Source: Candidatus Poribacteria bacterium
GTDB lineage: Bacteria; Poribacteria; WGA-4E; WGA-3G
Length of the DNA stretch: 64,000 nucleotides
Reading direction: 5' to 3'
Assembly: GCA_003635315.1 (NCBI GenBank)
Contig: PYJD01000010.1
Span: 1-64,000, forward strand
Positions 9,902-63,810 of the stretch are shown in pieces (the stretch's first letter is position 1; each line of letters opens with the position of its first letter). The notes under the pieces are model-generated. The model was not told the DNA's origin and ran no database searches. It saw only the letters and a list, made by a program, of their open reading frames with translations. A program made the position numbers and the translations under genes.

Positions 9902-10624
9902 ATGAAAAGAATGGCGATTTTTTATATTATTGCTTGTATTGCCATCACACCAGCGGTTTTCGCTCAGAGTTGGCAGCCAGCCGGAGACCAATGGATTGAA
10001 AAATGGTGGGGACTTGATCTGATCCTTAATACGGGTGATTTCAATGTTACTGCTTCCATTGATTATCTCTCTCAAGGAACAGATGATGTGATTTCAGATG
10101 CATCCGTTTCCACCCGTCATGGTGCGGGTCTAACTGGAAGGCTTTCTGTTAACCTACCTGATAATGGTGGCGTTCTGGGATGGGGTATTGTTGATATTGA
10201 TACCAACGATGGTAATAACATGTCTTCAAGCCATGGTTTTCCAAGTGAAAGAAATAACGTCACTTGGCAAGGGATTATCTTAATCCAATCACCAGATAAC
10301 CGTCGGACAAAAATGCATCCCGCCCATGACGATTATGCTCAAATCTGGATTAACGGAGATAAAGTGTATGATAACTCAGCATGGACTGGTGGTGTACGTG
10401 CGGTGACCCAACCTACCGAAGTCGATCTTATTAAGGGAGAGAACTTCTTACATTTCCGTTGTGGAGAAGGTGGTGGTTCGGATTATATTAATCTTCGTTT
10501 TGAAGAGGCAGATGATGATCTCAGAATTGCACCAACACTTGATAATAAATTCTTGGATATTCTGACACCTGTTGAACCCAGGAATAAGATTGCAACGACT
10601 TGGGCTGATATCAAGAGAAAATAA
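9902..10624 (+). CDS. Secreted jelly-roll-type protein ending in the KLATTW-like motif
   Basis: The 240-residue product starts with a signal peptide (MAIFYIIACIAITPAVFAQS). It continues as a beta-rich protein with DDYAQIWINGDKVYDNSAW and EVDLIKGENFLHFRCGEGGG. These resemble the edge strands of galactose-binding or PA14-like jelly rolls common in poribacterial secreted proteins. The enzymatic role is unknown; carbohydrate or surface binding is an inference. Its last 17 residues, VEPRNKIATTWADIKRK, match the ends of four other exported proteins in the window. CAGGAG lies 11 bases before the ATG at 9902; an ATG at 9866 would put 12 extra residues before the signal peptide and is less likely. A strong terminator follows 22 bases after the stop. 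Confidence 0.75.
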   Translation: MKRMAIFYIIACIAITPAVFAQSWQPAGDQWIEKWWGLDLILNTGDFNVTASIDYLSQGTDDVISDASVSTRHGAGLTGRLSVNLPDNGGVLGWGIVDIDTNDGNNMSSSHGFPSERNNVTWQGIILIQSPDNRRTKMHPAHDDYAQIWINGDKVYDNSAWTGGVRAVTQPTEVDLIKGENFLHFRCGEGGGSDYINLRFEEADDDLRIAPTLDNKFLDILTPVEPRNKIATTWADIKRK

Positions 10625-10646
10625 CCTATTAGATTTTGATCTTGAT

Positions 10647-10678
10647 AAAAAACCCGTATCAATTGATACGGGTTTTTT
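10647..10678. terminator. Bidirectional intrinsic terminator
   Basis: A perfect 32-bp palindrome has flanks of six A and six T residues around CCCGTATCAA/TTGATACGGG. It gives a GC-containing stem followed by a T run on either strand. It ends the plus-strand gene at 9902 and could also stop read-through from the minus-strand ASPIC operon. Confidence 0.9.
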
Positions 10679-10781
10679 GTTTTAAATCTTGTTTATGTGG
10701 GATGTCATATAATACGGAAAGCCAACCTAATCGGCAAACACTTTGAATCTGAATAATGATCATTGGTATTTCACATTACAT

Positions 10782-12446
10782 CTATCTTTGTAATTCTATT
10801 ATTTCTAAGGTTTGATTAATATTTACATCGGTTAGTTCTTGTACGATTCCACTCTGCCATTCAACAACTATACTATCTACAACAGTTGCTTTGCCTAAGC
10901 CGAATGATAGACGTATGTCACTACCTGAGGCATATCCGGATCCGCGTTTTACCTCGGCAATTTGTTCAATATTTTCTGTTTTAATTTTGACTCTGGAACC
11001 GATTCCATCTCGATTACTCTTTGTACCGATTAGTTTGATTCTTAACCAGTTATTTAAGCTAAGATTATTATTTTGTAGGAGCACTGCTCTTTGATTTGAA
11101 TTTACGATAATTATGTCAATATCACCGTCGTTATCATAATCTGAAAATGCTGAAGCTCTGCCTACGAGTTCTTCTTTGCTGTAACTACCTAATTGTTCTG
11201 AAACTTCAGTATAGAATTGATCTCCATTATTATGAAATAACTGATCTCGTTGTGCGTATGTCTCATGGTCTGTTAGGACTTCTATGACATCCTGTGGGTG
11301 TCCATTTGCTGAGAAAATATCCAGGAAACCATCGTTGTCATAATCAATGAATAACGGACTAAATCCAACATAAGGTAGGGTGGGTTGTTGTAGACCACTG
11401 ACTACTGTAGTATCAGTAAAATAGAAGTTATCGTTTTCTGGTCTCTCCAATTTGTAGAGCGTTGCCTTTTCAGAATTTGCCACTATCAAATCCATCAATC
11501 CGTCGCTATCATAATCACCAGAATCCACCCCCATAGATCCTTCTGGTGTACCATTTTCATCGTACCCTACCCCAAGAAATAGACTTTCATCTGTAAAGGT
11601 ACCATCTCCGTTATTATGATATAAGAAATTACGACTTGTATCGTTTGTGACATATATGTCTGGGTAAGTGTCCATATTATAATCAAATGCCACTGCCCCC
11701 ATTCCGCGTCCTTCAGATGGATTTACCAAACCAGCTGCTTCTGCTACATCCGTGAATGTTCCGTCCCCATTATTCCGAAATAATACATCGGCAGTGCCTT
11801 CATAACTTCTTGGGTGTCCGTATCCGATCACACCTTTGTATTTTGTAACCGGCATAGATAATTCGTAAACGAGATAATTGACGATGAAAATATCCAGATC
11901 TCCATCTAAATCGTAATCCAGATATATTGCTGCGATACTCCATTGGGTATTTTCTATTCCGGATGTTTTTGTAATATCTGTAAATGTTCCATCACCGTTA
12001 TTTTGGTATAACGAATCCTGACCATAGTTGGCAACATACAGATCCGCATCCCCATCATTATCAATGTCTGCTGCGGAAGCTGCCATTCCATAACCGGTAT
12101 CACCTGTTCCAGATTCTTCAGTTACATCGGTAAACTGACCATTCCCATCGTTTCGGTAAAGTATGTTACCAAAATGATTGTTTATATGGGTAGGGGGTAT
12201 ATCTTTATCTGGAATCGTACCACTGTTAACGAAATATAGGTCTGCATCATCATCTCCATCGTAATCAAAGAAGACAACACCAGACCCCATTGTTTCTATG
12301 ATATGTTTATGATCGGATTTACCATTGACGTGTTTAAAAGTAATACCTGCTTCGGTCGTAACGTCCGTGAAGTAAGGTGTTTGTTGTGCATTACAGTATA
12401 TTGAATATAAGAATATGAGTGAAAATATTGATAGGAATCTTTGCAT
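10782..12446 (-). CDS. Exported FG-GAP/VCBS-repeat protein with ASPIC/UnbV domain
   Basis: This 554-residue protein has a signal peptide (MQRFLSIFSLIFLYSIYCNA) and then six or more FG-GAP/VCBS-type repeats with Asp-rich loops such as FFDYDGDDDADLYFVN, DIDNDGDADLYVANYG and DYDNDGDIDIIIVN. These form a calcium-binding integrin-alpha-like propeller. The C-terminal ASPIC/UnbV domain reads RIKLIGTKSNRDGIGSRVKI, VKRGSGYASG, LSFGLG and VEWQSG. The family is secreted and its biochemical role is not established. It is the last gene of a minus-strand trio (TPR, SUMF1-like, this gene), 20 bases after the SUMF1-like stop, so it is very likely co-transcribed. It lacks both C-terminal tags seen elsewhere in this window. 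Confidence 0.88.
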   Translation of the reverse strand: MQRFLSIFSLIFLYSIYCNAQQTPYFTDVTTEAGITFKHVNGKSDHKHIIETMGSGVVFFDYDGDDDADLYFVNSGTIPDKDIPPTHINNHFGNILYRNDGNGQFTDVTEESGTGDTGYGMAASAADIDNDGDADLYVANYGQDSLYQNNGDGTFTDITKTSGIENTQWSIAAIYLDYDLDGDLDIFIVNYLVYELSMPVTKYKGVIGYGHPRSYEGTADVLFRNNGDGTFTDVAEAAGLVNPSEGRGMGAVAFDYNMDTYPDIYVTNDTSRNFLYHNNGDGTFTDESLFLGVGYDENGTPEGSMGVDSGDYDSDGLMDLIVANSEKATLYKLERPENDNFYFTDTTVVSGLQQPTLPYVGFSPLFIDYDNDGFLDIFSANGHPQDVIEVLTDHETYAQRDQLFHNNGDQFYTEVSEQLGSYSKEELVGRASAFSDYDNDGDIDIIIVNSNQRAVLLQNNNLSLNNWLRIKLIGTKSNRDGIGSRVKIKTENIEQIAEVKRGSGYASGSDIRLSFGLGKATVVDSIVVEWQSGIVQELTDVNINQTLEIIELQR

Positions 12447-12466
12447 TCTATCTATAGTAGGGAGGA

Positions 12467-13333
12467 TTATTCTTTAGTTTTGTCTGCTGTTTTTGCGACT
12501 CGGAATCCGATAAAAGAGGTTTTTAAATTTGGATATTGATGAAATCGGAATGTGGTACTACACCGGGGAATGGCATCTATCCATGAACCTCCACGAATAA
12601 CACGCCAACTGCCGTTTTTGGGTCCAGTAGGATTCTGTTTTGGACTATTGTAGTAATATACATCACTATACCAATCAGAAGTCCATTCCCATACGTTGCC
12701 TGCCATATCCATAGCACCATAATAACTTTTCCCTTGTTTGAAACTACCGACAGGTGCGATTCGATTCGGATATCCATCTTTATTTGAGACTGTATTTGCA
12801 TATTCTTCTAATGCATTCCCCCAGGGCCATGTTCTATCTGTATACCCGCGTGCCGCTTTTTCCCATTCAGCTTCAGTCGGTAATCTCATCCCTTTCCATT
12901 TTGCATAAGCATGTGCATCATGCCACGAGACACCTACTACTGGATGGTTTGGATATTCTTTTGCTCTATCTTGCCATTTTCCAATATGAGGTATATGGAT
13001 AAAATCTTCAGGCGTATGATGTTTAGTGTTCTGAGTAGTTGTTTTTTTATCAGTTTGTATGCTAATCCAAAACTTATAATATTCTGCATTTGTGACTTCA
13101 TATTTTCCGATATAGAATGCATCAAGGAAAACTTTATGGGTTGGTTTTTCATCAGCTGCGCGTTTATCACTTCCCATCGTAAATGTACCTGCAGCGACTA
13201 AGATTAGATTTTCATCCTCCAAGTCTCCATACATCTGTATAGGTGTTGTTAAAAGACAGGTAACAACAAGCATGATGAAAGCAGAAGAACGGCTTAGTAT
13301 GATGCTTGTAATTCTATTGAAATGTAATTCCAT
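12467..13333 (-). CDS. SUMF1/formylglycine-generating-enzyme-fold protein, exported, lacking one catalytic Cys
   Basis: The 288-residue product has an N-terminal hydrophobic segment (SAFIMLVVTCLLTTPIQMYG) and a full SUMF1 fold: VAAGTFTMGSDKRAADEKP, FYIGKYEVTNAEYYKFW, PVVGVSWHDAHAYAKW, RLPTEAEWEKAARG, GAMDMAGNVWEWTSDWYS and RVIRGGSW...GFRVAK. The aerobic sulfatase-activating enzyme needs two cysteines after the GGS motif. Here the first position is Asp (GGSWID) and only the second is Cys (PRCSTT). It is therefore probably not a working sulfatase maturase but a SUMF1-like binding or modifying protein. The start at 13333 is chosen over 13411 because it lies 7 bases after the upstream TPR stop and just before the signal segment. 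Middle gene of a three-gene operon. Confidence 0.85.
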   Translation of the reverse strand: MELHFNRITSIILSRSSAFIMLVVTCLLTTPIQMYGDLEDENLILVAAGTFTMGSDKRAADEKPTHKVFLDAFYIGKYEVTNAEYYKFWISIQTDKKTTTQNTKHHTPEDFIHIPHIGKWQDRAKEYPNHPVVGVSWHDAHAYAKWKGMRLPTEAEWEKAARGYTDRTWPWGNALEEYANTVSNKDGYPNRIAPVGSFKQGKSYYGAMDMAGNVWEWTSDWYSDVYYYNSPKQNPTGPKNGSWRVIRGGSWIDAIPRCSTTFRFHQYPNLKTSFIGFRVAKTADKTKE

Positions 13334-13340
13334 AGATGTA

Positions 13341-14528
13341 TTACTTTTTGTTCTTCTCCAGATGGTATTCATAGGTTTTGTAATGTTCCTGAGCGAGCTT
13401 TTGCTGTCCAATACTTTGATATAACTTAGAGATATTTAGATGAAACAAGGGTTGTTCTGAATCCAGTTCAATGGCTTTACGAAATGCCCCTATTGCATTT
13501 GGCACATTGCCTTGCATAGCGTATGTACTGCCAAGGGTGTTATAGTAAACAGGTATATTGGGTTGAAGTTTAATCGCTTTTTGTACATATTCTTGAGCGG
13601 GTCTTGGATAATTTAATTGGATGAATGCTTGGCTGATACCGTGGTGATAACCAGAAATTGCTTCGGCAGTTTTTTGTTGTTGTGTTGCCAGTTGAATACA
13701 ATTCTGTAGTACGGGTATGACTTCATTATATTGTCTCTGAGACATTAACACTTGTGCTAATCCTGTCCACCCATCAAGGTTTTGTGGTTCATTTCGTGTT
13801 AAACGGGTGAACCGTTCATATTCTGCATACTGCTTTTGCAGTTGCTGAAAAATTTGCATTTCTTTACGACTTTTTTCTCTATCTCCTAATCGAAGATATG
13901 TGGTTCCAAGACCGTGATGTGGGTCAGCATAGTTTGGTGGACCGTGTTGGATAGCATTATTGAAATTATCAATTGCTTTTTGGTATTCTTTTAGATTTAG
14001 GTATGCTGTTCCCAGTTCATTATATATACCAGCAGAAAACGGTTTTAGCTTAATTGCTTGCGTTAGTGTGGGAACAGCTTCCTTATATTTGCGTAGTTTC
14101 ACGTATACCTTTCCGAGTAGTTCAAAACCGCGACCGTGTTCCGGATCAAGGTTTATGACTTTCTGTAATGGTTCAGTTGTATTATCCCATTGGTTTAGTT
14201 TGAAATATGCTACTCCTAATGAATATAATGCCTCAATGTTTTCTGGATTTAGGTTTAGAGAACGTTTATAGGATTCTATAGCCTTGTTTAGGGATTCTTG
14301 ATTTGCATAGGCCATTCCTAAGTAGTGTAGTATTTCAAAGTGATCGGGTTCAATCTTAAGTGCATTTTCAAATTCCTTAATTGCTCCTTGGTTGTTTCCT
14401 TGAAATAGCATTTGAAATGCCTGTTCAATGTGCTGTACATATTTATTGTGTTGCGTATTTTCAGCAAGGCATAGATTGCTTTGTAGGCAAAAATAGAAAA
14501 TGAGTATTATGATTAACCTATGATGCAT
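13341..14528 (-). CDS. Exported tetratricopeptide-repeat protein
   Basis: This 395-residue protein begins with a signal peptide (IIILIFYFCLQSNLCLAE). It then has about nine TPR units, for example GAIKEFENALKIEPDHFEIL, KAIESYKRSLNLNPENIEAL and NAIGAFRKAIELDSEQP. TPR solenoids bind other proteins, and here it would do so outside the cytoplasm. It is the first gene of the TPR > SUMF1-like > ASPIC operon; the next start follows 7 bases after its stop. TPR and ASPIC/UnbV proteins are often found together in bacterial genomes (family knowledge), so the three products may form one surface or periplasmic assembly. No strong Shine-Dalgarno site precedes the ATG at 14528. Confidence 0.88.
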   Translation of the reverse strand: MHHRLIIILIFYFCLQSNLCLAENTQHNKYVQHIEQAFQMLFQGNNQGAIKEFENALKIEPDHFEILHYLGMAYANQESLNKAIESYKRSLNLNPENIEALYSLGVAYFKLNQWDNTTEPLQKVINLDPEHGRGFELLGKVYVKLRKYKEAVPTLTQAIKLKPFSAGIYNELGTAYLNLKEYQKAIDNFNNAIQHGPPNYADPHHGLGTTYLRLGDREKSRKEMQIFQQLQKQYAEYERFTRLTRNEPQNLDGWTGLAQVLMSQRQYNEVIPVLQNCIQLATQQQKTAEAISGYHHGISQAFIQLNYPRPAQEYVQKAIKLQPNIPVYYNTLGSTYAMQGNVPNAIGAFRKAIELDSEQPLFHLNISKLYQSIGQQKLAQEHYKTYEYHLEKNKK

Positions 14529-14653
14529 AGCAATATCCGTTTATATAATGAGTTAGGTAATGTTGTAGAGTCATGCGGAATTATCCTTCTATGATATTAG
14601 CCGTAATGTGGAAATAAATCAAGGTTTTCTATAGTTGTTGTGTTGCCTGAAAT

Positions 14654-17682: not shown

Positions 17683-17722
17683 AATTTTGAATTGCATTTA
17701 GTATGTGTGTATTAAATTGACA

Positions 17723-45291: not shown

Positions 45292-46291
45292 TTGAAGGAT
45301 AAAACTATACGTTATATTTCAATTTTCATCACGTTCTTCTTGTTGTGTTTTGTTCCCTTCGCCACTGCAAAAATCGTGTTTACGATAGGTTGGGAAATCT
45401 ATAAGATGGACGATGATGGAAGTAACGTGAAAAGATTGACATACAATAAAGTCTATGATGGGCTTCCACGTTGGGCACCAGATGGGAGTTCCATTGCATT
45501 CGAACGCCAACAACCCAGAGAAACCAATCAACAGAATCTTGATCTTTTCCTTATGAACCTGGATGGCACACAGGAGCGACAACTCACCACCTACACTGGA
45601 CTTGATGCAAACCACTGTTGGGCACCCGACAGTCAACAAATGACATTTTCAAGTACGCGAACCGGTGATAAATGGAGTATTCATATCATTGATATTGAGA
45701 CGCAAGAAATACGTGAGCTTTTACCTTCAATTAAGAATCAATACACGGGGAGCGCATCATGGTCTCCTGACGGGAAAGAATCGCTTATATCGTAACAAGT
45801 ACAAAGACAAGACCTTTCAAGAAGCTATCTACACTGTAAATCCAGAAGGTCAAAACCCACGTCGTTTCACAAAATTTGCTGACTCAACCCTATATTCTCT
45901 CGACTGGTCATCCGATGGAAAACTACTACTATATTGTGAGGAAAAACGCATTGGCAGAGTTCTTCATAAAAACAGAATTGCTATACACAATGCTATGAGT
46001 GGACGATTCATAAGAGAACTTGAAATGCCACCACTCAACAAATGGTACATAAACGGTGCCAGCTGGATGGGAACTCAGCATGTATTTATTACCGCGACTG
46101 AGGATTATAGTCGTCCAGACGGTGGACAGATAGATATTTTTAGATATACACTTGCTACGGATGAGATTATCAATTTGACAAACACATCGAGAAAAAACGA
46201 ATTTTCTCCAGATTGGATAACAGATTCAGCACTTGCAGTTACGCCTTTAGATAAACTCACGGTTCAGTGGGGAGAACTCAAAAGGGATTGA
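45292..46291 (+). pseudogene. TolB-like secreted beta-propeller gene split by a frameshift, ending in the KLATTW-like motif
   Basis: Two overlapping frames encode one protein. The first (45292-45795) has a signal peptide (YISIFITFFLLCFVPFATA) and TolB/WD40-like repeats such as IYKMDDDGSNVKRLTYNKVY, PRWAPDGSSIAFER and SASWSPDGK. The second frame continues from about 45780 (NRLYRNKYKDKTFQEAIYTV, LDWSSDGKLLLYCEEKR) and ends VTPLDKLTVQWGELKRD, the shared C-terminal motif. A one-base change in GGGAAAGAA near 45776 breaks the frame. The start appears to be a TTG right after an in-frame stop. It may be a recent mutation, a sequencing error or real slippage. Confidence 0.75.
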
Positions 46292-51200: not shown

Positions 51201-54200
51201 ATGAATACGAGGGAAGGTTATACAGAACTACAATCTAAAATATTGGCTGCACGACGTGTATGGAAACGAAGCCTCTTCTGGACAGGAGCTGCTATCGTAA
51301 TTATTGGACTTCTTGCTATCCTTATAGGAGAATCCGTTGTAGATTGGTTAATGCCACTCCCAAGTACTGTACGAGTAGCCATGCTCGTAGGTATTGTTGT
51401 AGCAGTGATCTACCTACTAATTAGACACATTGTTCTACCCTTAAAAGCCTCCTTGACACTTCGAGATGTCGCACTTAACGTTGAGGAGAAACATCCCAAT
51501 CTTGAAGATAGACTTGTAAGTGCGGTACAATTTGGATCACGGGAATCAGACGATCCAATTGAATCTCATATGTTGCAACGACTCCTTGAAGATACCACCA
51601 AACGAATTAAAGGTATTGATTTTAAAGCAACTATTGACCACAGCCGAACTCGAAAATATGTTAGTATTGCCATCTTAGTAATTGCTGCTTGTGGCTTACT
51701 CACACTCCTGTTTCCCACAGAAATACAGACCAGCTTAATGAGAGTTTTAGTTCCATGGGAGAAAACAAAACCCATTTTATCTACGAAAGTCGCTGTTTCA
51801 CCGGGAAATGCTCGAATTCTTATTGGAAAGAGTTTACCAATTGATGTCATTGTAACCGGAAAATCTGCAGATAAAGCCACCCTCACATACTATAACAAAG
51901 ATAACCCCCCAACGGCTGATAGTGAAGGAAGTAAAAAAGAGATAAATATGCTACAAAATCCTGATGATAAACGGGGTTTTGCCTATGAACTCTTCAATAT
52001 AGAAACAGAGATGGAATACTTTGTTACAGTCAATGAAACCACATCTGATAGATTCACGATTGAAGTATTTGAAATGCCGCGCGTCGTAGATATTTCTGTA
52101 GCGTATACCTATCCTGAGTATACTGGTCTCAGTCCAGTAATACAACAAGGAAGTGGAGATGTGCAAGCAGTAATCGGTTCAACAGCAGAAATTCGCATCA
52201 CAACAAATAAGGCTATACAGAAGGCTACATTCACACACGAAACTTCAAATACTGAACCTATTATTGATGAAAATGAAGAAGAAAGAGAGACCACCACAGA
52301 TTCTCCTGAAATGACTATTGCTGATGGTAACATACTTGCCAAGACAATCCAAGTTACCGAGGATGGAAAATACAGTGTAGAACTTCTCTGTATTGATAAC
52401 TTTAATAATGAAATACCTATTGAATATACTATACAGGCGAATCCTGATAATCCTCCAGAAGTAGTTATTAAAGAACCCGGACGTGATGTCAAAGCTTCAA
52501 TACTTGAAGAGGTAAAAATCGTTGCTGAAGCAACAGATGACTTTGGCGTAGAACAGCTAAAACTGATGTACCGTATCGGTGCTGGAGAATTACAAGAACT
52601 CCTTATGGAATCTCCAGTGGAACAGCTCACTGAAGATAGTAATATCGGTCCCGCAAAACATCTGAAAACTGGTACATATAACTTCTATTTAGAAGAATTT
52701 GATGTTGAACCCGGAGAAATAATAACATATTATGCACAAGCTATTGACAACAATACGCTTACTGGACCCAGTGAAGGTAAAAGTGAGATTTATTTCATTG
52801 AGATTAAACCCTTTAATCAACGACTTTCAGAAGGTGAACCTGCAGAAAGCGGAATGCCAAACCCATTTCTTGAGTTAATTACTTCACAAAAGCAAATTAT
52901 ACGAGAAACATGGAATCACATTAACTCACAACCACCCACCATGACAGAAGATTACAAATCAGCCGTCAAACAGACCGGAACCAAACAATCAGAGTTAAAA
53001 GATAGAACTCAAAAGGTTACTGATGAATTGAGCATGCAAATGCAAGAGGTGCAAATTGATCCCGAAATAATGATGAACCTTGAAGAAGCTATCGATATGA
53101 TGGGTGAGGCAACAGATCATCTAAATGCGACACAACCCACAACAGCGATTCCACCTGAACAAGCTGCTCTTGAACTCCTTATAAAAGTCAATCTGGCATT
53201 TCCGAAAGTGTTAAGACAAGCAAGGAATAGCCAACCCGAACTTGCTGAGAACTTTGAACTGGAATTGGAGGATCTACAGAATGAACTTGAGCAAGATCAG
53301 GAAGAACTCGAAAGAGAGATGCAAGAACAGACACAGGAAATGTTAGACCAAGCCAGAGAAATGCTGGCACAACAACAGAATCTAAATCAACAGAGTCAGC
53401 AAATGGGAAGGGAAAGTCAACCCTCTCCAAGTGATATGCAGCAAAACAGCCAACAACAAGGTGATTTAGCCCAACAAGCGGAGCAGATGTCTCAGCAACT
53501 TGGAGAAATGCAGGGAAATGCTCAAGGTACACAGAGCGAACGTTTATCCCAAGCCGGACAAGCAATGGAGCAAGCCGGTGAACAGATGCAACAAGCATCA
53601 CAAGGTATGGAACAGCAACAACCCCAGTTGAGTGCCGCCAAAGGTGAAAAAGCTGAAGAACGACTTGAACAAGCGATTGATCAACTTGAAAGGGCTGCCG
53701 CTGAATTCACTGATAACGCATTAGAGAGGACAGCTGAACAACTCCAACAGTTGACTGCTGAACAATCTAATGTCCAACAACAAACACAGGAGTTACGCGA
53801 GAGAACTCAAGAATCCGGTATGCGTCCAGAGGATTACCGACAGGCATCTGAACTTGCTAATGAGCAACGCCAACTTCAACGAGACTTAGAGTCAGTTGAG
53901 GAAAATTTGAATAATCTTCAAGAACAACTAAATCAAGAGAATCCTGAAGCTGCACAGAATGTCCAAGATGCATCAAGACGACTCACTGAAGAACAAACTT
54001 CAGAGGATATGGGGACGGCTCAACGAGCATTACAATGGCGAAGTCTACAATCTGCAGAGTCAAATCAACAAGAAGCGCTTGATACACTTCGTGAAGCTCA
54101 AAACGATCTGCAACAAGCAAGATCTAACATGGCACGCACTGAAGAAGAGCAACTTGAAGCCACACTTGACCAACTTCAAAACTTCGAAGAACAGATGCAG

Positions 54201-54761
54201 GATATACAGCGCGAACGGGAAGCGATGGAAGGACAAGAACAGACTGAAGAACAACGACAACGGGAACAACAACTTGCTGAACAACAACAGCAACTCCAAG
54301 AACGTATGCAACAGGCACAACAAGCCATGCAAGACGGGCAGCAAGGACAGCAAGGTCAGCAACCCGGACAACAAGGTCAAGAAGGACAGCAACCTGGGCA
54401 ACAGGGACAGCAACCTGGACAACAGGGACAGCAACCTGGACAACAGGGACAGCAACCTGGACAACAGGGACAGCAACCTGGAGAGAATGACTTAGCAAGA
54501 AGTGGTCCAGAATCCAATCGGGAGATCAAGGAACTCTGGTTAGATCTTATTGACAGTATGCAATATCGTGCTGGAGATCGAAAGAATCCGTTCCCAAATT
54601 ATGAACTCGCAATACGTGATTTGAGAAAACTTGAGACTGCTATTGAAGAACGACTTAACCTGTTACAAGAAATGAAACAACTAACGCAAGTTGCTAAAGA
54701 AGATGTACCACCAAAATACCGAAGACTTGTTGACAACTACTACGAATCCTTAGCAAAGTAG
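51201..54761 (+). CDS. DUF4175-like membrane-anchored protein with long Gln-rich coiled coil
   Basis: This 1186-residue protein has two N-terminal membrane helices (SLFWTGAAIVIIGLLAILIG, VAMLVGIVVAVIYLLI), a third near residue 155 (VSIAILVIAACGLLTLLF) and beta-rich domains between about 200 and 540. From about residue 580 there is a very long coiled coil dominated by Gln and Glu (MQEQTQEMLDQAREMLAQQQ). A collagen-like low-complexity stretch follows (QQGQQPGQQGQ repeats, residues about 1045-1095), then a short folded end (RSGPESNREIKELWLDLIDS). The layout fits DUF4175, of unknown function in the envelope. DNA repeats of 21 bases encode the QPGQQGQ units. AGGAG lies 6 bases before the ATG and a terminator follows. 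Confidence 0.85.
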   Translation: MNTREGYTELQSKILAARRVWKRSLFWTGAAIVIIGLLAILIGESVVDWLMPLPSTVRVAMLVGIVVAVIYLLIRHIVLPLKASLTLRDVALNVEEKHPNLEDRLVSAVQFGSRESDDPIESHMLQRLLEDTTKRIKGIDFKATIDHSRTRKYVSIAILVIAACGLLTLLFPTEIQTSLMRVLVPWEKTKPILSTKVAVSPGNARILIGKSLPIDVIVTGKSADKATLTYYNKDNPPTADSEGSKKEINMLQNPDDKRGFAYELFNIETEMEYFVTVNETTSDRFTIEVFEMPRVVDISVAYTYPEYTGLSPVIQQGSGDVQAVIGSTAEIRITTNKAIQKATFTHETSNTEPIIDENEEERETTTDSPEMTIADGNILAKTIQVTEDGKYSVELLCIDNFNNEIPIEYTIQANPDNPPEVVIKEPGRDVKASILEEVKIVAEATDDFGVEQLKLMYRIGAGELQELLMESPVEQLTEDSNIGPAKHLKTGTYNFYLEEFDVEPGEIITYYAQAIDNNTLTGPSEGKSEIYFIEIKPFNQRLSEGEPAESGMPNPFLELITSQKQIIRETWNHINSQPPTMTEDYKSAVKQTGTKQSELKDRTQKVTDELSMQMQEVQIDPEIMMNLEEAIDMMGEATDHLNATQPTTAIPPEQAALELLIKVNLAFPKVLRQARNSQPELAENFELELEDLQNELEQDQEELEREMQEQTQEMLDQAREMLAQQQNLNQQSQQMGRESQPSPSDMQQNSQQQGDLAQQAEQMSQQLGEMQGNAQGTQSERLSQAGQAMEQAGEQMQQASQGMEQQQPQLSAAKGEKAEERLEQAIDQLERAAAEFTDNALERTAEQLQQLTAEQSNVQQQTQELRERTQESGMRPEDYRQASELANEQRQLQRDLESVEENLNNLQEQLNQENPEAAQNVQDASRRLTEEQTSEDMGTAQRALQWRSLQSAESNQQEALDTLREAQNDLQQARSNMARTEEEQLEATLDQLQNFEEQMQDIQREREAMEGQEQTEEQRQREQQLAEQQQQLQERMQQAQQAMQDGQQGQQGQQPGQQGQEGQQPGQQGQQPGQQGQQPGQQGQQPGQQGQQPGENDLARSGPESNREIKELWLDLIDSMQYRAGDRKNPFPNYELAIRDLRKLETAIEERLNLLQEMKQLTQVAKEDVPPKYRRLVDNYYESLAK
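54385..54483 (+). repeat. 21-bp in-frame tandem repeat coding QPGQQGQ
   Basis: The unit CAACCTGGACAACAGGGACAG repeats about four and a half times with perfect or one-base-different copies. It keeps the reading frame and gives a Gln-Pro-Gly-rich linker. The near identity of copies implies recent expansion, so copy number probably varies between strains. Confidence 0.85.
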
Positions 54762-57187: not shown

Positions 57188-57979
57188 ATGCATAACAAAT
57201 TATTTCCTATCAAGTCTTCATCGAATATAGATACAAATATATATTTTAGCCTAATTGTATTATTTACATTGGGTCTTTGTAGTTTGATTTTTACACCGAC
57301 TGTCGTAGCACAGGACATATTATTACAAACAGGATTTGAGGATTTCACCGTTGGTTCACCACCAACAGATTGGGAAATACGAGGAAATCAGATTAATGTA
57401 ACCGACGATACCGTTAAGACCGGTGATAAATCTCTCGGTATATTAGGGGGAGCAAATGATGACAGATGTGGGGTAGCTATTGAAACAGAAAATCCTATCA
57501 TATCTGTCGAATTTTGGGTCTTCATTAAAGGATCGGGAAGATCGTTTAATCTCAAAGTAGTTTCTGATGATAACGTCGCCGTGAATGACGGTGGCGTATA
57601 TATGAATTGGAATGAAAATGCAGTCCGTCTTTACAATGGTTCAGCATGGGTCGCAATTGATAATTTCCCATTTGGTAGTTGGAGATATGTTCGAGTTGTC
57701 GCAGATGTGAGTAAGAGTGAATTCGATTATTATGTTGGAAAAGATAGAGACGAAACACTGTTAGCGGAACCTATTTCCGGTCTTGCATTTAGAAAACCAG
57801 CCACTAATCCTGCCGCACAGTGGGTTGTCTTTCACGTCTATTCATCTGTAGCACAAGGATTCGTAGATGATTTACTCATCTATGAAGGTGCAGATCCACC
57901 TGTCTCAACACCTGTCGAATCTAAAGACAAGCTTACAACATATTGGGGACAGGTCAAGAAACAATCCTCATTACGGTAG
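57188..57979 (+). CDS. Secreted beta-rich protein with KLATTW-like C-terminal motif (paralog 1)
   Basis: The 263-residue protein has a signal peptide (IVLFTLGLCSLIFTPTVVAQ) and a single jelly-roll-like domain: LLQTGFEDFTVGSPPTDWEI, NPIISVEFWVFIKGSGRSFN, WRYVRVVADVSKSEFDYYVG and WVVFHVYSSVAQGFVDDLLI. This resembles concanavalin-like or carbohydrate-binding folds, without catalytic residues that I can recognise. The end reads VESKDKLTTYWGQVKKQ plus SSLR, the shared tag with a short extension. AAGGAG lies 5 bases before the ATG. It is a tandem paralog of the next gene, and both lie between two PhyH-family genes. Confidence 0.82.
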   Translation: MHNKLFPIKSSSNIDTNIYFSLIVLFTLGLCSLIFTPTVVAQDILLQTGFEDFTVGSPPTDWEIRGNQINVTDDTVKTGDKSLGILGGANDDRCGVAIETENPIISVEFWVFIKGSGRSFNLKVVSDDNVAVNDGGVYMNWNENAVRLYNGSAWVAIDNFPFGSWRYVRVVADVSKSEFDYYVGKDRDETLLAEPISGLAFRKPATNPAAQWVVFHVYSSVAQGFVDDLLIYEGADPPVSTPVESKDKLTTYWGQVKKQSSLR

Positions 57980-58051
57980 ATTACATATTTCCTATAGAAG
58001 TTTGGTAAGACACAATTAACCGATTAGATATAAATTCAATAAGGAGAGAAA

Positions 58052-58819
58052 ATGAGGAAGAGAGGTTACAGGATAAAAGGCAAGAGAACATCTATCACAG
58101 CAATACTTGTTCTATCATTTATGTGCTTTCTTCTCAACTTCTATCTATTACAAGATGCCGTTTCCCAAAAGGTTTTTCTCCAGACAGGATTTGAGAAAGA
58201 TTCTGTGGGGAAACCACCAAAGGATTGGGATGTAAGAGGTGAAGGATTTGAGGTAACAACAGACACTGTCAAAACAGATAAGAAGGCGCTTGCAATCTTA
58301 CTTGGTCCAAACGATGATAGAGTAGGCATTCCAATTGAAACTGACAATCCAATCATTTCAGTTGAATTTTGGGTTTATATACAAGGCGGGGGTAGATCAT
58401 TCAATCTCAAAATAATTACTGCAGATGATATAGGACAACACAATGGTGGTCCATATATCAATTGGAATGGTGATACAGTCCGGCTTTTTGATGGAGCGGC
58501 ATGGGTTCTAATTGATGAGTTTGATACCGATGAATGGAAATATGTCCGCGTCGTTACGGACGTAAGTAAAAGCGAATTTAATTTCTATTCTGGTAATGAT
58601 CGAAATTTAGCATTAAAAGATCGAGGTAAAAAAGGTCTCCCCTTTCGTAACCCCGCAGTAAATCCCACGGCTAAATGGGTCGCTTTCCATGTTTATTCCA
58701 TGACAGCACGCGGTTATGTAGACGACGTTTTAATCTACGAAGGTGACGAACCTGTTAACCTTGCCGTTGAACCTGACGATAAACTGGCTACTGTCTGGGG
58801 ACATATTAAGAAAAAATGA
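58052..58819 (+). CDS. Secreted beta-rich protein with KLATTW-like C-terminal motif (paralog 2)
   Basis: The 255-residue protein is a clear paralog of the preceding one, with well over half of the residues matching by eye: VFLQTGFEKDSVGKPPKDWD, NPIISVEFWVYIQGGGRSFN, YVRVVTDVSKSEFNFYSGND and WVAFHVYSMTARGYVDDVLI. A basic N-terminus (RKRGYRIKGKR) precedes the signal peptide (ILVLSFMCFLLNFYLLQDAV). It ends VEPDDKLATVWGHIKKK, the tag in its plainest form. AAGGAGAG lies 4-5 bases before the ATG. The 72-base gap after the upstream gene suggests a shared transcript. Tandem duplication probably made the pair. Confidence 0.82.
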   Translation: MRKRGYRIKGKRTSITAILVLSFMCFLLNFYLLQDAVSQKVFLQTGFEKDSVGKPPKDWDVRGEGFEVTTDTVKTDKKALAILLGPNDDRVGIPIETDNPIISVEFWVYIQGGGRSFNLKIITADDIGQHNGGPYINWNGDTVRLFDGAAWVLIDEFDTDEWKYVRVVTDVSKSEFNFYSGNDRNLALKDRGKKGLPFRNPAVNPTAKWVAFHVYSMTARGYVDDVLIYEGDEPVNLAVEPDDKLATVWGHIKKK

Positions 58820-58963: not shown

Positions 58964-59779
58964 ATGGATAACGGTACAGTTGAACTCACACCAGCGCAAC
59001 GGTTGCACTTTGACATATACGGGTTCGTCCTATTAGAGAATGTACTTTGTAAAGATGAAATTGAACGGATGAAAGACGCTCTGTATAGAATAAAAGCAGA
59101 TGAACTACTTGAAAATCAACGAATTTATGTCCGTCCTAATGGTGAACACCATGTCCTTTTCGGTAATCTTGTTGAGTATGATCCCGCTCTATTAGAATAT
59201 GCTGCACATCCAAAACTGGTTCCACTCGTTGAGGAAGTAGTAGGTGGAACAGTACGTCTTGAGGAAACAGAAGCTATCATCAACAGACGAAACCCAGATG
59301 ATGATTTTGAAAAGCTTTTTGACAGGAAATACAATCCCACTGGATTTCATAGAGGAACGCAACACGGATGGGGAACTTATATCGAACAAGATAAATTCCA
59401 CTGTATCTTTGTTAAGACACTTGCCTATTTAACGGATGTAGGACCAGACGATGGAGGGACATGTCTTATTCCTGGAAGCCACCGATTAACTTGGAATCAA
59501 CGCGAGATGATTGATGCTGCTTTGGCTGATGATAAACTCATCCATCAAGTTGAAGCACCTGCAGGTTCGGTCTTACTATTTGGCGAATCACTGATACACA
59601 GTACTACAGCTATTCGTAGCGATAAAGAACGGGTAATTCTGGTAGCAGGATATACTCCACCTATGGTACGGGAATGGCCAGGAAACGAAGTGAATCCAGA
59701 GTTTATTGAGACGCTTCCTGAGGAGATCCGTCCGCTTATTTCTGGTAGCGACAGTTGGCACTGGAGACGTAGATATTAG
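58964..59779 (+). CDS. Phytanoyl-CoA dioxygenase-like protein with an altered iron site
   Basis: The 271-residue protein has the family start LTPAQRLHFDIYGFVLLENV and the central YLTDVGPDDGGTCLIPGSHR plus GSVLLFGESLIHSTTAIRSD blocks. It also has ERVILVAGYTPP, which supplies the distal His and Arg. At the place of the H-x-D iron motif it reads GFHRGTQHGWGTYIEQDKFH, so a standard H-x-D is not evident. Metal ligation may use other residues, or activity may differ. Start: ATG at 58964, GAGG 6-7 bases upstream. It is convergent with the sulfatase gene, 38 bases apart. Confidence 0.83.
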   Translation: MDNGTVELTPAQRLHFDIYGFVLLENVLCKDEIERMKDALYRIKADELLENQRIYVRPNGEHHVLFGNLVEYDPALLEYAAHPKLVPLVEEVVGGTVRLEETEAIINRRNPDDDFEKLFDRKYNPTGFHRGTQHGWGTYIEQDKFHCIFVKTLAYLTDVGPDDGGTCLIPGSHRLTWNQREMIDAALADDKLIHQVEAPAGSVLLFGESLIHSTTAIRSDKERVILVAGYTPPMVREWPGNEVNPEFIETLPEEIRPLISGSDSWHWRRRY

Positions 59780-59817
59780 ACATGCACGCAGTTGATAAGA
59801 TAAATCTCTATCTACCT

Positions 59818-61329
59818 TTATGCTCCCGATGTTCTCGGCATCCACAGAGATTCTTTACCCATCTCTGCAAATAGCAATTTCATCACCAGTTCCGATTTCA
59901 ACTCAGTATGCTCAGCGGAATCCCAAAGATTGTTAATCTCACCCGGATCCTCGTGCATATCAAACAACTCTCCATAATCACGGTTATAGTAGACGGTGAG
60001 TTTATACCTGTCATCAACATAGGTCTTTACATGAACAGTCGTTGGTTCATGATGATTCTCTACGATAATATGGTCACGAACCTCTTCCTGCTGTCCATAC
60101 CATACAGGCGTTTGATCAACACCTGTCATTGGATGGGGTATATCAATTCCAGCAGCACTCAAGAATGAAGGTGCTAAATCTACCAATGTCTGAAGTGCAT
60201 TAGACTCTTTTCCAGCAGGAACAACTCCTGGATATCGTACTATATATGGCACACGAATCACATCCTCATAATGGAATGCTCCCTTAGCTATTAATCCATG
60301 TTGTCCATAAAAATGTCCATGGTCAGACGTAAATAGAACCAATGTATTGTCTGCTAATCCCAGTTCATCAAGTTTGCCTAATATCTGTCCAATATACTTA
60401 TCCATTAGACTCACCATACCATAATACACTGCAATATCTTTAGCGAGTTCATCTCTGTCCCTAAGATGTGATCGGAATCCGTGGACACCCTTCCCACTCT
60501 CACGCCATTCAGAAAAATCAGGTTTTCTCTGTTGTGTCATCTGGAAATGGACAGGATTCTTATCATGTTCACCTTCAGTTACGGATGGAACAGTCAAGGA
60601 TTCTGGATCATACATCGTATCCCAAGGTTCAGGAACAAGATACTTCGGATGGGGATCAAAGAAACTTGCCCATAAAAAGAAGTTCTCATCATTCTCCTGA
60701 TAACTTTGCATCAAAGCATTCGTTCTTTCTGCTATCCAGGTATCATAATGAAACTCTTCAGGAATCGGCCATTTTCTGTATTGTCCTTTAGCATTTCCTG
60801 TGGGAGGAGAGTAATAATCGCGCCAGTTTGTGAGACCATTCTCTTCCATCCAAATAGCATAGTGCTGCCCAACATGTGCTTCATCTGCATGGTTACGTGC
60901 CAACTCTACATGTTCGAAACCGTAAAAAGGTTCATCGAAATTACGCCAGAAATCCAAATCTTGTAATATAGGATATGATTCCAATGATGGGTATTCTTCT
61001 GTTCCGTGTAAAGGTTGGAAGTGTGCTTTACCAACAAGTGCAGTTCTATATCCTGCTTCGGTAAAATCCTCACCGACTGTATGTTCATCTTCTGATAACT
61101 TTGTACCAAGAGACCATGCACCGTGTTGACTGGGGTATTTACCGGTAATAATGGAGGCACGGGTTGGTGTACAGGTAGGATTAGGGCAATATGCTCTATG
61201 AAAAAGTGTTCCGTCGTTTGCTAATGCATCTAAATGAGGTGTCTGGATTTCAGGATTTAAACAACCTAAGGTATTCCAATGCTGTTGATCACTTGTAATA
61301 AGCAGAATATTCGGTCTGGGTTTTTCCAT
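59818..61329 (-). CDS. Cys-type sulfatase (alkaline-phosphatase superfamily)
   Basis: The 503-residue enzyme hydrolyses sulfate esters, perhaps from sulfated polysaccharides of algae or sponges. The start RPNILLITSDQQHWNTLGCL carries the metal Asp pair. NPTCTPTRASIITGKYPSQH is the sulfatase signature C-x-P-x-R, whose Cys must be converted to formylglycine. LVGKAHFQPL, SLMDKYIGQIL and LVLFTSDHGHFYGQHGLIAK complete the metal and substrate site. No signal peptide is seen when translation starts at the ATG at 61329 (AAGGAG 6 bases upstream); the longer ORF from 61377 has no such site. The maturase gene that precedes it on the same strand supplies the modification. Confidence 0.92.
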   Translation of the reverse strand: MEKPRPNILLITSDQQHWNTLGCLNPEIQTPHLDALANDGTLFHRAYCPNPTCTPTRASIITGKYPSQHGAWSLGTKLSEDEHTVGEDFTEAGYRTALVGKAHFQPLHGTEEYPSLESYPILQDLDFWRNFDEPFYGFEHVELARNHADEAHVGQHYAIWMEENGLTNWRDYYSPPTGNAKGQYRKWPIPEEFHYDTWIAERTNALMQSYQENDENFFLWASFFDPHPKYLVPEPWDTMYDPESLTVPSVTEGEHDKNPVHFQMTQQRKPDFSEWRESGKGVHGFRSHLRDRDELAKDIAVYYGMVSLMDKYIGQILGKLDELGLADNTLVLFTSDHGHFYGQHGLIAKGAFHYEDVIRVPYIVRYPGVVPAGKESNALQTLVDLAPSFLSAAGIDIPHPMTGVDQTPVWYGQQEEVRDHIIVENHHEPTTVHVKTYVDDRYKLTVYYNRDYGELFDMHEDPGEINNLWDSAEHTELKSELVMKLLFAEMGKESLWMPRTSGA

Positions 61330-61407
61330 ATATCTCCTTAAAAGGTATAATGAAAATGTGTAAATTTGGTTCCTCAAGTATCCTTATAGAAATACTACAT
61401 GAGGATC

Positions 61408-62718
61408 CTATGCATTCTTTCCTAAACAGCACTGTTTATACTTCCTGCCACTACCACAAGGACAAGGTGAGTTTCGTCCAATTTTCTGTGAGGTTGATGT
61501 ATTTGTCTTTTGTCCATCAACGTTCCCTGATTTCTTACCAAGTTTGCGTTGACGCATAATTGGCATGATACTATTCGCGAGTTGTCCCTTTTGAATTGCA
61601 GAAGCCATGAGTTTCATCGGTTCATCTATGTGAGTGAAGAAATGTTTATAACCTTCACATAAATAGTTCAAACCGTCTTCTCCTGAAGGGGTTTGAATAA
61701 TGCGATTCTTTGGACAGCCTCCATTACAGACAAATTTAACATCACAATTCAGACAGTATTCAGGTAATGTATCTCGTTTATCCGTACCGAATTTCCGTTG
61801 AAACGGAGAATCAACCATATCTGCGATACTCGTCTCCTCAATGTTACCGATGAAGTAATCGGGTGTTACGTAGTGGTCACAGGAATATAAATCTCCATTA
61901 TGTTCTATAGCCATCGCGTCCCCACAGGTCTCATTAAATACACACAAACTGGGGTTATATCCTAACCATGCCTCCAATGCAACATCAAATATCTGCACAA
62001 AGATTTTTCCAATGTCATTCACTACCCATTCATCGAATATAGTCGACAGGAATTTCCCATATTGCTTACCTGTAACTGAACGCGGAGATACATTCTTTCC
62101 ATCAAAATGTTCAACCGCTGGAATGAACTGCATAAACTCTACACCAAGTTCTTTAAAATAGGAGTATACCTCTTTTGGATATTCAGCATTGTGTTGATTC
62201 ACCACACATAGCACATTATAGTCAACCCTATGTTCCTGCAATAACCGCAATCCACGAATAACCTGCTCAGATGTCGGTCGGCCGCGCTTGTCATACCGAT
62301 ATTTATCATGGATTTCAGGTGGACCGTCGATACTAATTCCAACTAAAAACCTGTTACGTTTGAGAAATTGTCCCCATTCATCATCCAGAAGTGTTGCGTT
62401 GGTCTGGAAAGTATTTTGTATCCTCATGCCGCTGCGTTTATATTTCTGTTGATATCGAACAGCTTGTCGGAAAAAGTCAACACCCATTAGGGTCGGTTCC
62501 CCACCTTGCCATGCAAAAGTGACTTCGTTTATCTGCTGTGCCTCTATGTACTGCTTGACATAGTTCTCCAGAGTCTCGTCATTCATCCGAAAAGATTTTG
62601 TCTCTGGATACAGGTCTTCTTTTTCGAGATAAAAGCAATATTCGCAATCCAAATTACATATCGGTCCTATCGGCTTCGTCATGACATGAAAAGCGCGTGG
62701 TGCTTTAGTTTGAACCAT
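61408..62718 (-). CDS. Anaerobic sulfatase-maturating radical-SAM enzyme with C-terminal SEC-C motif
   Basis: The 436-residue enzyme oxidises the sulfatase active-site Cys or Ser to formylglycine. The SAM-cluster motif is GPICNLDCEYCFYLEKEDLY (C-x3-C-x2-C). VTFAWQGGEPTLMGVDFF and VGISIDGPPEIHDKYR follow, and then a SPASM region with seven or more Cys, including TCGDAMAIE, LYSCDHYVTPDYFIGN and YCLNCDVKFVCNGGCPKN. After a short linker it ends with RNSPCPCGSGRKYKQCC, a SEC-C zinc motif normally found at the end of SecA. GGAGGT lies 6 bases before the ATG. The sulfatase gene starts 78 bases after its stop (ATG at 61329), so they are an operon-like pair. Confidence 0.92.
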   Translation of the reverse strand: MVQTKAPRAFHVMTKPIGPICNLDCEYCFYLEKEDLYPETKSFRMNDETLENYVKQYIEAQQINEVTFAWQGGEPTLMGVDFFRQAVRYQQKYKRSGMRIQNTFQTNATLLDDEWGQFLKRNRFLVGISIDGPPEIHDKYRYDKRGRPTSEQVIRGLRLLQEHRVDYNVLCVVNQHNAEYPKEVYSYFKELGVEFMQFIPAVEHFDGKNVSPRSVTGKQYGKFLSTIFDEWVVNDIGKIFVQIFDVALEAWLGYNPSLCVFNETCGDAMAIEHNGDLYSCDHYVTPDYFIGNIEETSIADMVDSPFQRKFGTDKRDTLPEYCLNCDVKFVCNGGCPKNRIIQTPSGEDGLNYLCEGYKHFFTHIDEPMKLMASAIQKGQLANSIMPIMRQRKLGKKSGNVDGQKTNTSTSQKIGRNSPCPCGSGRKYKQCCLGKNA

Positions 62719-63036
62719 ACTATTACCTCCTATTTCACTTCTGTTAATATAGCATAATACCCCTGAGACAACAAGTAAAAAGTGAGATATACTAAGTTAA
62801 AATTAAATACATGCTTACCTAATAATAGTGTCTGAATCGAATAGACTGTCCATTCAATACATTCCAATTAATCTTGCGAAATATAGTAATTTGGAGTATT
62901 ATCTTCTATCACAGGATATGGGTTATTGATAAAATTGAACCTTCAATGGAAATTACGATACCCATTCATCCTCAATATTAGTACAACTTAGAATAAATGT
63001 TTAGTTAGATACGTTCAAATTGTTTGGAGGACACTA
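62719..63036. other. Divergent intergenic region, no gene seen
   Basis: About 318 bases separate the minus-strand maturase gene from the plus-strand LamG gene, so both promoters must lie here. The sequence is AT-rich with no repeat of the families above. I could not fix either promoter. Confidence 0.4.
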
Positions 63037-63810
63037 ATGAGATTTGTAAGTGTGTTCATCATGTTATTTTTCTGTCTCGGTGTAATAACAGCATTAGCAT
63101 TAGAACCAGATGATGAGGCTATTGTTGGTGTATGGTTATTCGAAGATAATGCTGATGATTCGTCTGGGAACAAAAATGATGGTAAGATAAATGGTGATTT
63201 TAAATTCGAAGACGGTAAATTTGGAAAAGCAGTTGTTGCAGCTGGTGGTGGTAGTATTGATGTACAAGATTCAAACAGTATACAATCCATCAGTGATGAA
63301 TTGACTGTGGCAGCATGGTTTCGTGTAGATGCTGATTCTGACACAGGTGTTAGAAAAAATGGGGCTTTCCTTCTTGAAGATCAGTCTGCTGGTGAACCGA
63401 TACCGGATGGGTTCTCGTTCAGAATATGGACGGATCAAGGCATTACACCAGGTTTTTACGGAAAGACTGAGTTAGAACAGAAGAAGTGGCACCATGTTGC
63501 TGGAACCTATGATGGCACAAAAGTCGAAATGTACGTTGACGGTGAACCTGATAGTGAAAATGGTGCACTCGCTGACAATAAAGGAGATTGGGAGCCGGAA
63601 TGGGGTGGTAAGGTGCAAGCAGGACAGGTCTTACAGCTTAAGTTTGGTCCCGAATCTTTCACTGGTGGGATTGACGAAATCGTAATACTTAGTCGTGCCC
63701 TTGAAGCTGAAGAAATTCAACAACTATTGAATGGTTGGGATGAAGCTTTTGATGTAGAACCCCAAGGAAAACTTGCAACGACGTGGTCTCGTGTAAAAGC
63801 CAGAAGATAA
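63037..63810 (+). CDS. Secreted LamG-domain protein with KLATTW-like C-terminal motif
   Basis: The 257-residue protein has a signal peptide (SVFIMLFFCLGVITALALEP) and a LamG/concanavalin-like lectin domain: GVWLFEDNADDSSGNKNDGK, ELTVAAWFRVDADSD, KKWHHVAGTYDGTKVEMYVD and GGIDEIVILSRALEAEEIQQ. All are hallmark strands of the LamG-jellyroll fold that binds sugars. The last 18 residues, VEPQGKLATTWSRVKARR, are the shared tag. GGAGGACACTA precedes the ATG. A hairpin terminator follows right after the stop. A role in glycan binding near the sulfatase genes is plausible. Confidence 0.87.
   Translation: MRFVSVFIMLFFCLGVITALALEPDDEAIVGVWLFEDNADDSSGNKNDGKINGDFKFEDGKFGKAVVAAGGGSIDVQDSNSIQSISDELTVAAWFRVDADSDTGVRKNGAFLLEDQSAGEPIPDGFSFRIWTDQGITPGFYGKTELEQKKWHHVAGTYDGTKVEMYVDGEPDSENGALADNKGDWEPEWGGKVQAGQVLQLKFGPESFTGGIDEIVILSRALEAEEIQQLLNGWDEAFDVEPQGKLATTWSRVKARR

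Follow-up and report, generated by a model that had tools for sequence, protein, structure and literature searches.

Why do five proteins encoded on one poribacterial contig end in the same 17-residue peptide? The stretch in question, called the window here, comprises bases 1-64000 of contig C10 in a genome of 4.33 Mb (50 contigs), and the shared end, V-E-P-x-x-K-L-A-T-T-W-G-x-I-K, was seen in all five proteins. We examined this peptide, referred to below as the tail or the tag, in the window, in its source genome, and across the phylum. The reading that we favor, with a rough probability of 45%, is that it is a phylum-wide C-terminal tag serving as a docking peptide for a putative common envelope receptor, which would address or hold exported proteins. 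In some larger proteins the same tag sits before a C-terminal domain (CTD) like that of the type IX secretion system (T9SS), and removal of the CTD would leave the tag as the new C-terminus. The tail genes of the window and their tails are as follows.

9902..10624, forward strand: tail-bearing protein of 240 residues with a signal-peptide-like start and a sub-threshold PA14 match
10571..10621, forward strand: its tail, VEPRNKIATTWADIKRK, terminal (profile match, reading frame)
45292..45795, forward strand: N-terminal part of a PD40/TolB-like propeller gene, with a signal-peptide-like start, in a frame that differs from that of the tail
45665..46291, forward strand: open frame with the C-terminal part of the broken propeller gene
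46238..46288, forward strand: its tail, VTPLDKLTVQWGELKRD, terminal (profile match)
57188..57979, forward strand: tail-bearing protein of 263 residues with a signal-peptide-like start, resembling its tandem neighbor at 58052
57914..57976, forward strand: its tail, VESKDKLTTYWGQVKKQ followed by SSLR, terminal (profile match)
58052..58819, forward strand: tail-bearing protein of 255 residues with a signal-peptide-like start, resembling its tandem neighbor at 57188
58766..58816, forward strand: its tail, VEPDDKLATVWGHIKKK, terminal (profile match)
63037..63810, forward strand: tail-bearing LamG (PF13385) protein of 257 residues (Pfam, AlphaFold model)
63754..63807, forward strand: its tail, VEPQGKLATTWSRVKARR, terminal (profile match)

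All five ends lie where a preliminary description of this DNA had placed them, each at the C-terminus, with 0, 1, 4, 0, and 0 residues beyond the profile match in window order. A profile trained without these five tails recovered them at 23.5-36.2 bits, the next best segment of the window scoring 5.4 bits, and the working profile, built from 54 tails, gave five window matches at 26.0-37.1 bits. Reversed sequence was used as the specificity control: the 54-row profile stayed below 10 bits in the reversed window, the profile trained without the five tails reached 8.9 bits at best in 552 kb of reversed fetched loci (in overlapping pieces), and no reversed DNA scored above 9.0 bits. The preliminary description had credited all five proteins with signal peptides; an intact signal-peptide-like start is present in four, and the frame that holds the propeller tail is without one. 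The start and first blades of that protein lie at 45292-45795 and its tail (46238-46288) in another frame, and the gene is therefore either broken or affected by a sequencing error. The folds first proposed were confirmed in part. Pfam curated cut-offs are passed by the LamG protein (77.5 bits to PF13385) and by the first part of the propeller (59 bits to PD40), while the protein at 9902 has its PA14 match below threshold and the pair at 57188 and 58052 gave no Pfam match.

The window is a small sample of a large set. In the source genome, searched at E ≤ 10 with 150 of 166 candidates scored, so that counts are lower bounds, at least 120 matches to the tail profile were found, and 118 of these 120 end 0-8 residues before a stop codon. 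The motif, first described as always terminal, is thus terminal with two exceptions, and both internal matches (C40:184788 and C7:77796) sit directly before a YPNPFNPETW domain, the T9SS-like CTD. One degenerate tail that the profile missed was read at a LamG locus. W-x3-K is kept in 117 of the 118 terminal tails, the exception being a 23-residue frame that ends in ...QWVR. Column statistics were taken on these 117 tails, leaving out the tail without W-x3-K and the two internal matches: K8 is conserved at 93%, V3 at 92%, G14 at 76% (with Ala at 20%), L9 at 69%, T11 at 68%, P5 at 66%, and T12 at 63%, positions 6 and 15 are unconstrained, and positions 10-12 most often hold Thr. A hydrophobic anchor and LPxTG are absent from the columns, in line with the preliminary description. 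The stop most often falls three residues past K17 (58 of 117; range 0-8 residues), and this variable length suggests that the carboxylate itself is not read. By eye, tail genes often stand in tandem pairs or triplets (window 57188-58819; C21:20691-21763, C50:29567-31345, and C34:93928-95819), a sign of local duplication.

To judge how widely the tail occurs, we searched 84 genomes of the phylum and found tail matches (E ≤ 0.01) in all 84, covering 21 of 21 genera, with 25 to at least 107 matches per genome. At the 30 best-scoring phylum loci, every pattern match stood 2-4 residues before the stop. When 84,980 species genomes were scanned with a conserved part of the pattern, 257 stretches came back, 194 of which were confirmed, and the best 80 of these 194 were all titled Poribacteria. 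Restriction to Poribacteria is thus likely from the sequence data, a grade set by a scan pattern that covers typical tails only and by titles for the best 80 of 194 stretches. A homolog search at the protein level gave 21 close orthologs and thereby no broader set.

What do the proteins that carry the tail have in common? By a simple, loose hydrophobicity rule, signal-peptide-like starts occur in 111 of the 118 tail frames, as compared with 17 of the 36 other open frames of at least 190 residues in the window. Seven tail frames have no such start. For the window propeller gene (46232) and one further gene, inspection by eye places a signal-peptide-like start in a different frame; a third runs off the end of its contig, and the remaining four are either short or without an evident N-terminal part. 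Propeller-type tail genes at C28 and C27 are also without an intact in-frame N-terminal part. The carriers are small, with a median length of 261 residues and 4 of 118 exceeding 400. Pfam and NCBIfam scans of 116 of the 118 frames (two tiny frames of 23 and 33 residues were left out) gave 42 overlapping Pfam families, several families being possible per protein. Among the best 25 of the 42 are LamG_3 (58 proteins), PD40 (8), DPPIV_N (7), 3-keto-disaccharide hydrolase (6), CBM9 (4), F5/8 (3), NPCBM (2), LTD (2), He_PIG (2), and single ankyrin, LDL-receptor class B, and CBM4_9 proteins; no sorting domain is among these 25, and the 19 NCBIfam families found in the 116 tail-only proteins include no sorting-signal family.

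With LamG_3 in 58 of 116 proteins and many other domains in the set, a LamG-specific tail, or a tail belonging to a single homologous domain family, was ruled out. When LamG_3 was searched independently of the tail, 58 of 62 genome matches had a tail match nearby, so the spread of the tail is not an artefact of searching by tail; of the other four, one has a degenerate tail and three are tailless, in frames of 712, 726, and 776 residues. Mean tail identity stays at 0.47-0.52 (about 0.50) while mean domain identity is 0.19, 0.25, and 0.33 in the bins compared (1488 of 1500 sampled pairs of 114 proteins), a tail figure inflated because the proteins were found by their tails, which makes the LamG count the fairer test. 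By these comparisons the tail behaves as a module of its own. The profile search proposed in the preliminary description returned mostly C-terminal ends of signal-peptide-like proteins with many unrelated domains. Of the outcomes named there as speaking against a tag, two were not seen: the matches do not form one domain family (LamG_3, 58 of 116), and the motif is not found at an equal rate in cytoplasmic-type frames (111 of 118 against 17 of 36 signal-peptide-like starts). The other, an internal position, arose in appearance only, with 2 of 120 matches, each immediately ahead of the T9SS-like CTD.

The two internal matches raise the question of how the tag relates to the T9SS-like CTD, for which two window proteins served as comparators.

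1959..4871, reverse strand: large protein with a YPNPFNPETW (T9SS type A-like) C-terminal domain
5002..7701, reverse strand: WD40-like protein with a YPNPFNPETW C-terminal domain

In both comparators the tag part of the query was unaligned before the YPNPFNPETW domain. A genome search with one tag-plus-CTD stretch gave 43 matches (a few being pieces of one gene), of which 3 align from the tag on and 40 leave the tag unaligned, and reading of 18 stretches upstream of CTDs in this genome found the tag in 3 and not in 15. The three proteins with tag and CTD are of FG-GAP/ASPIC, propeller, and sulfatase-like type. An FG-GAP/ASPIC protein elsewhere in the genome (L037) has tag and CTD, in contrast to the FG-GAP/ASPIC-looking protein (by eye) at window 10782-12446, which ends in neither.

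In the phylum, a search with a composite of these three proteins gave a score-ranked list in which nearly all rows align from the tag on. A recognizable module was present in 29 of 30 distinct CTD upstream stretches read (25 by pattern, 4 by eye) and, by eye, in 19 of 20 further loci chosen for more distant genera (L321 had no CTD by pattern), both samples coming from score-ranked lists that favor module-bearing proteins. Among the best 120 of 3600 homologs, a list that favors relatives of the query, K17 lies 8 residues before [YF]PNPFNP in all 120, and G14 and K17 are kept at 100%, K8 at 94%, V3 at 93%, and P5 at 88%. W-type copies also occur before the CTD (L318, L319, and L322-L325), for example VEPTGKLGTTWGKVK in L323, and the pattern common to terminal and CTD-coupled copies is V-x-P-x-x-K-x4-[WL]-G-x-[IV]-K. 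Two CTD-coupled proteins match TIGR04183 at 34.6 and 28.6 bits (cut-off 23), a model absent from the 116 tail-only proteins in the NCBIfam scan. Tag and CTD cannot be one and the same, because either occurs without the other. Each is used alone, since most CTD matches in the genome lack the tag and the tail-only proteins lack the CTD. The preliminary description was right to call the two distinct, and they are separable; they are nevertheless linked, a variant of the module preceding the domain in other proteins. Because many proteins across the phylum have both, tag and CTD likely do different jobs.

Does the tail have a structure of its own? It had been proposed that Leu, Trp, and Ile/Val share one face of an amphipathic helix. 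At 100 degrees, residues 8-17 have a mean hydrophobic moment of 0.274, and at 160 degrees one of 0.560 (shuffled sequences give 0.298 at either angle); the column means have a lower second peak of 0.391 at 110 degrees against 0.55 at 160. The residue pattern thus leans to an extended or strand form over a helix, and the helical face was borne out neither by the moment nor by two AlphaFold models. In the model of the window LamG protein (38-sequence alignment, mean predicted local confidence score (pLDDT) 72), residues 240-257, which are the tail, have pLDDT below 50, and no strand is seen in the tail of this one tail-only model. In the model of the propeller-tag-CTD protein P0058 (58-sequence alignment, mean pLDDT 85), the sole stretch below 50 is 233-249, and the tag occupies 234-249, with the propeller on one side and the CTD on the other both modelled confidently. 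Conservation without a predicted fold is what one would expect of a linear recognition motif read by a partner.

If the CTD is an export signal, the phylum should encode a system to use it. A 2014 study reported a T9SS-type sorting domain in single cells of Poribacteria and, in the excerpt from which we cite it, no T9SS structural genes (PMC3909097). We searched the 84 genomes and 14 controls. Matches to SprA_N occur in 78 of 84 genomes and in none of the controls; most of the frames that hold them are about 2000-2300 residues long. The SprA-like protein of the source genome (G000:C31, L200:478-6978) scores 160.4 bits to TIGR04189 (E 3.6e-47; cut-off 200), and a cluster of CTD genes starts about 6 kb from its gene. 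The PorV family was above its cut-off in 84 of 84 genomes, with 1 of 14 controls matching below the cut-off, and the source genome has 14 PorV-family matches, five of them above it. Peptidase C25 was above the Pfam cut-off in 83 of 84 genomes and in none of the 14 controls, and against the PorU model, whose cut-off is 420, the two C25 proteins that were read score 385 and 356 bits. A further locus of the source genome is listed here.

L316:1844-7039 (G000:C42): T9SS-like gene locus

Since SprA-, PorV-, and PorU-like matches are nearly phylum-wide, a T9SS-like system in Poribacteria is probable from sequence comparison, and the presence of these genes in 78, 84, and 83 of 84 genomes reopens the gap stated in the excerpt of PMC3909097. 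By eye, at least 12 genomes have a SprA-like and a C25 gene on the same contig, separated by about 28-42 kb. Three PorV-family genes stand directly beside same-strand, divergent CTD matches (C16:75976-77367, in L342; C33:16002-18259; C43:78939-80306); the three look like cargo-shuttle pairs as for type B CTDs and SprF, and the C16 place was read. A link between the tail and a PorV shuttle by gene neighborhood was considered and rejected, one weak case being all that was found. The expected co-occurrence of the tag with an export system therefore holds as far as the SprA-, PorV-, and PorU-like genes go, but nothing ties that system to reading the tail.

Collectively, the sequence itself shows the module, its position at the C-terminus, its occurrence with unrelated domains, its constant spacing before the CTD, and the T9SS-like genes, while the signal peptides and the lack of a fold in the tail are predictions. 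The terminal position, the mostly signal-peptide-like starts, the many unrelated domains, and the absence of a hydrophobic anchor and of LPxTG make a sorting or anchoring tag the best class, so that the preliminary proposal of a sorting, anchoring, or chaperone tag stands as to type and falls as to the amphipathic helix and the signal peptides on all five proteins. On the reading as a docking peptide, we infer that tail proteins would be exported by Sec, and that in the larger proteins the CTD would bring about passage through the outer membrane, beyond which the exposed tag would then address or hold the protein. A PorU-like protease might cut off the CTD, as is known for the T9SS in Bacteroidota. 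In Prevotella intermedia, according to an excerpt from PMC11969387, which is cited in this form throughout, cleavage sites of T9SS cargo lie in a flexible linker before the CTD; after a comparable cut the mature protein would end in the tag, as the tail-only proteins do. In both settings the tag would bind one putative envelope receptor.

Several observations weigh against this reading. The SprA-like score (160 against 200) and the PorU-like scores (385 and 356 against 420) stay below the NCBIfam cut-offs, no more than 30 of 84 genomes pass the Pfam cut-off for SprA_N, and comparing the SprA-like protein of the source genome with PDB sequences did not find SprA. Tail genes are not beside PorV genes, 1 of 14 PorV matches having a tail gene within 5 kb (by eye). 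The Trp position is Leu in 88% of the CTD-coupled copies (best 120 of 3600), and the two forms may therefore not bind the same thing. The LamG model has a second stretch of pLDDT below 50 (residues 101-123). Finally, the tag could be a periplasmic or chaperone signal, and the CTD in Poribacteria may stay uncleaved.

A more far-reaching form of the docking-peptide reading is offered tentatively, and we rate it as rather doubtful. The tag would be a phylum-specific address code, in which one 17-residue linear peptide with a putative dedicated envelope receptor stands alone on about 100 or more small lectin-like and other proteins per genome and before a removable T9SS domain on larger enzymes and propellers, two export routes thus leading to the same surface display system.

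Among the alternatives, the one that survives best, although we consider it unlikely, makes the tail a minimal T9SS export signal that stands in for the CTD in reduced form; it would thread C-terminus first into the SprA-like pore, and a PorV-family shuttle would take it up. The nearly phylum-wide outer-membrane genes, the multiple PorV-family copies, and the physical joining of a module variant to the CTD agree with this explanation, and there are precedents in the excerpt of PMC11969387: short CTDs of about 40-55 residues in P. intermedia and, from work cited there, green fluorescent protein whose secretion and attachment required the last 22 residues of Hbp35. Such a signal would be redundant in proteins that have both tag and CTD, however, and 40 of 43 CTD matches were unaligned to the tag, 0 of 116 tail-only proteins match TIGR04183, the tail has no predicted strand, and tail genes are unlinked to PorV genes.

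A second alternative places the partner in the periplasm, the tail being a site for a chaperone, protease adaptor, or quality-control factor that acts on small lectin-like proteins ahead of their passage through the outer membrane or in its place. The signal-peptide-like starts in 111 of 118 frames and the small carriers (median 261 residues; 4 of 118 above 400) agree with this, a conserved unstructured end could well be a chaperone or adaptor site, and our placement of tagged proteins beyond the outer membrane is itself inferred. We nevertheless regard it as quite unlikely, in that large proteins have the module variant beside an outer-membrane translocation domain, where a retention signal would oppose export.

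Covalent modification of the Lys, Trp, or Thr cluster by a sugar, lipid, or cross-link that fixes the protein at the surface appears improbable. K8, G14, and K17 are conserved in both settings, Thr prevails at positions 10-12 of terminal tails, and T9SS cargo of P. intermedia is glycan-linked at its mature C-terminus (PMC11969387, excerpt), but no modifying enzyme was linked to the tail in this analysis, and Trp is not kept in most CTD-coupled copies (best 120 of 3600). The least probable explanation is descent from an ancestral CTD linker, which the tail-only proteins would have kept after losing their CTD. Terminal and CTD-coupled modules do resemble each other, and propeller tails such as VTPQGKKKVVWGEIK seem to fall between the two forms. 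Decay of a CTD was rejected, however: the 174 to 603 bases read behind each of the 118 tail stops hold no CTD remnant (best E 3.4), and the retention of W-x3-K in 117 of 118 tails and of the tail at 58 of 62 LamG matches is unlike a decaying leftover.

Other features of the window touch the tail genes less closely. Two overlapping frames at its start (11-797) presumably belong to an IS5-type transposase. Just upstream of the tail-bearing LamG gene, two adjacent genes (59818-62718) encode what we take to be a sulfatase and a radical-SAM sulfatase maturase. A Gln/Gly/Pro-rich repeat lies at about 54100-54500 within a 1186-residue frame (51201-54761), with long open frames on both strands.

The strings KLATTW, KLTTTWG, TTWGxIK, and KLATTWG occur in no paper of the open-licence PMC literature, and no description of the tail was found in that literature on Poribacteria with C-terminal sorting, T9SS, or LamG or among the ten papers listed of 203 on short C-terminal sorting tails. 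The excerpts of PMC13052501, PMC7440613, and PMC7313196 make no mention of a T9SS in Poribacteria.

If the docking-peptide reading is true, a sizeable set of exported proteins, half of those scanned having LamG-type domains, would be displayed through one short peptide, and the tag would be a sequence handle for predicting which poribacterial proteins meet their surroundings. Poribacteria are known from marine sponges. Were the address code also true, it would represent a Gram-negative class of C-terminal sorting independent of membrane helices and of folded signal domains. With SprA-, PorV-, and PorU-like genes at hand, the export route of the CTD proteins becomes directly testable.

How does the tag compare with known C-terminal systems? 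LPXTG, PEP-CTERM, and GlyGly-CTERM tails consist of a motif, a hydrophobic helix, and a basic end and are served by a dedicated sortase-type enzyme. Like the tag, these tripartite tails are short and terminal and occur on unrelated exported proteins, many per genome, but the tag has no hydrophobic stretch, and none of their families is among the 19 NCBIfam families found. Dockerins and encapsulation or cargo peptides resemble it as terminal docking modules or peptides on diverse cargo. Dockerins are calcium-binding folds of about 60-70 residues; encapsulation peptides are found on cytoplasmic proteins without signal peptides, and the cargo peptide of microcompartments and encapsulins is an amphipathic helix. 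The tag, with signal-peptide-like starts on its carriers and a non-helical hydrophobic moment, falls outside the microcompartment and encapsulin class.

The closest comparisons are within the T9SS. The short CTDs of P. intermedia are likewise shortened C-terminal signals on exported proteins, but they have about 40-55 residues, three predicted strands, and motifs B, D, and E (PMC11969387, excerpt), whereas the tag has 17 residues plus 0-8 more and no predicted strand, which places it outside that class. For type B CTDs, the secretion signal and the targeting signal have been proposed to be separate (PMC12618676, cited here and below from an excerpt), and the type B CTDs with their PorP/SprF shuttles resemble our reading of the tag in that a separate targeting signal sets the final place. 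There the targeting signal lies inside a CTD of 150-235 residues and the shuttle gene is often adjacent (PMC12618676); the tag is a 17-residue peptide with no linked shuttle gene. The T9SS type A CTD (TIGR04183; PF18962, PF13860) is a folded unit of about 100 residues (PMC12618676), as against 17 residues with no predicted fold for the tag. Both are C-terminal, on Sec-exported proteins (predicted as such for the tag), and shared by many passengers, and in many proteins of Poribacteria the type A domain directly adjoins a variant of the tag.

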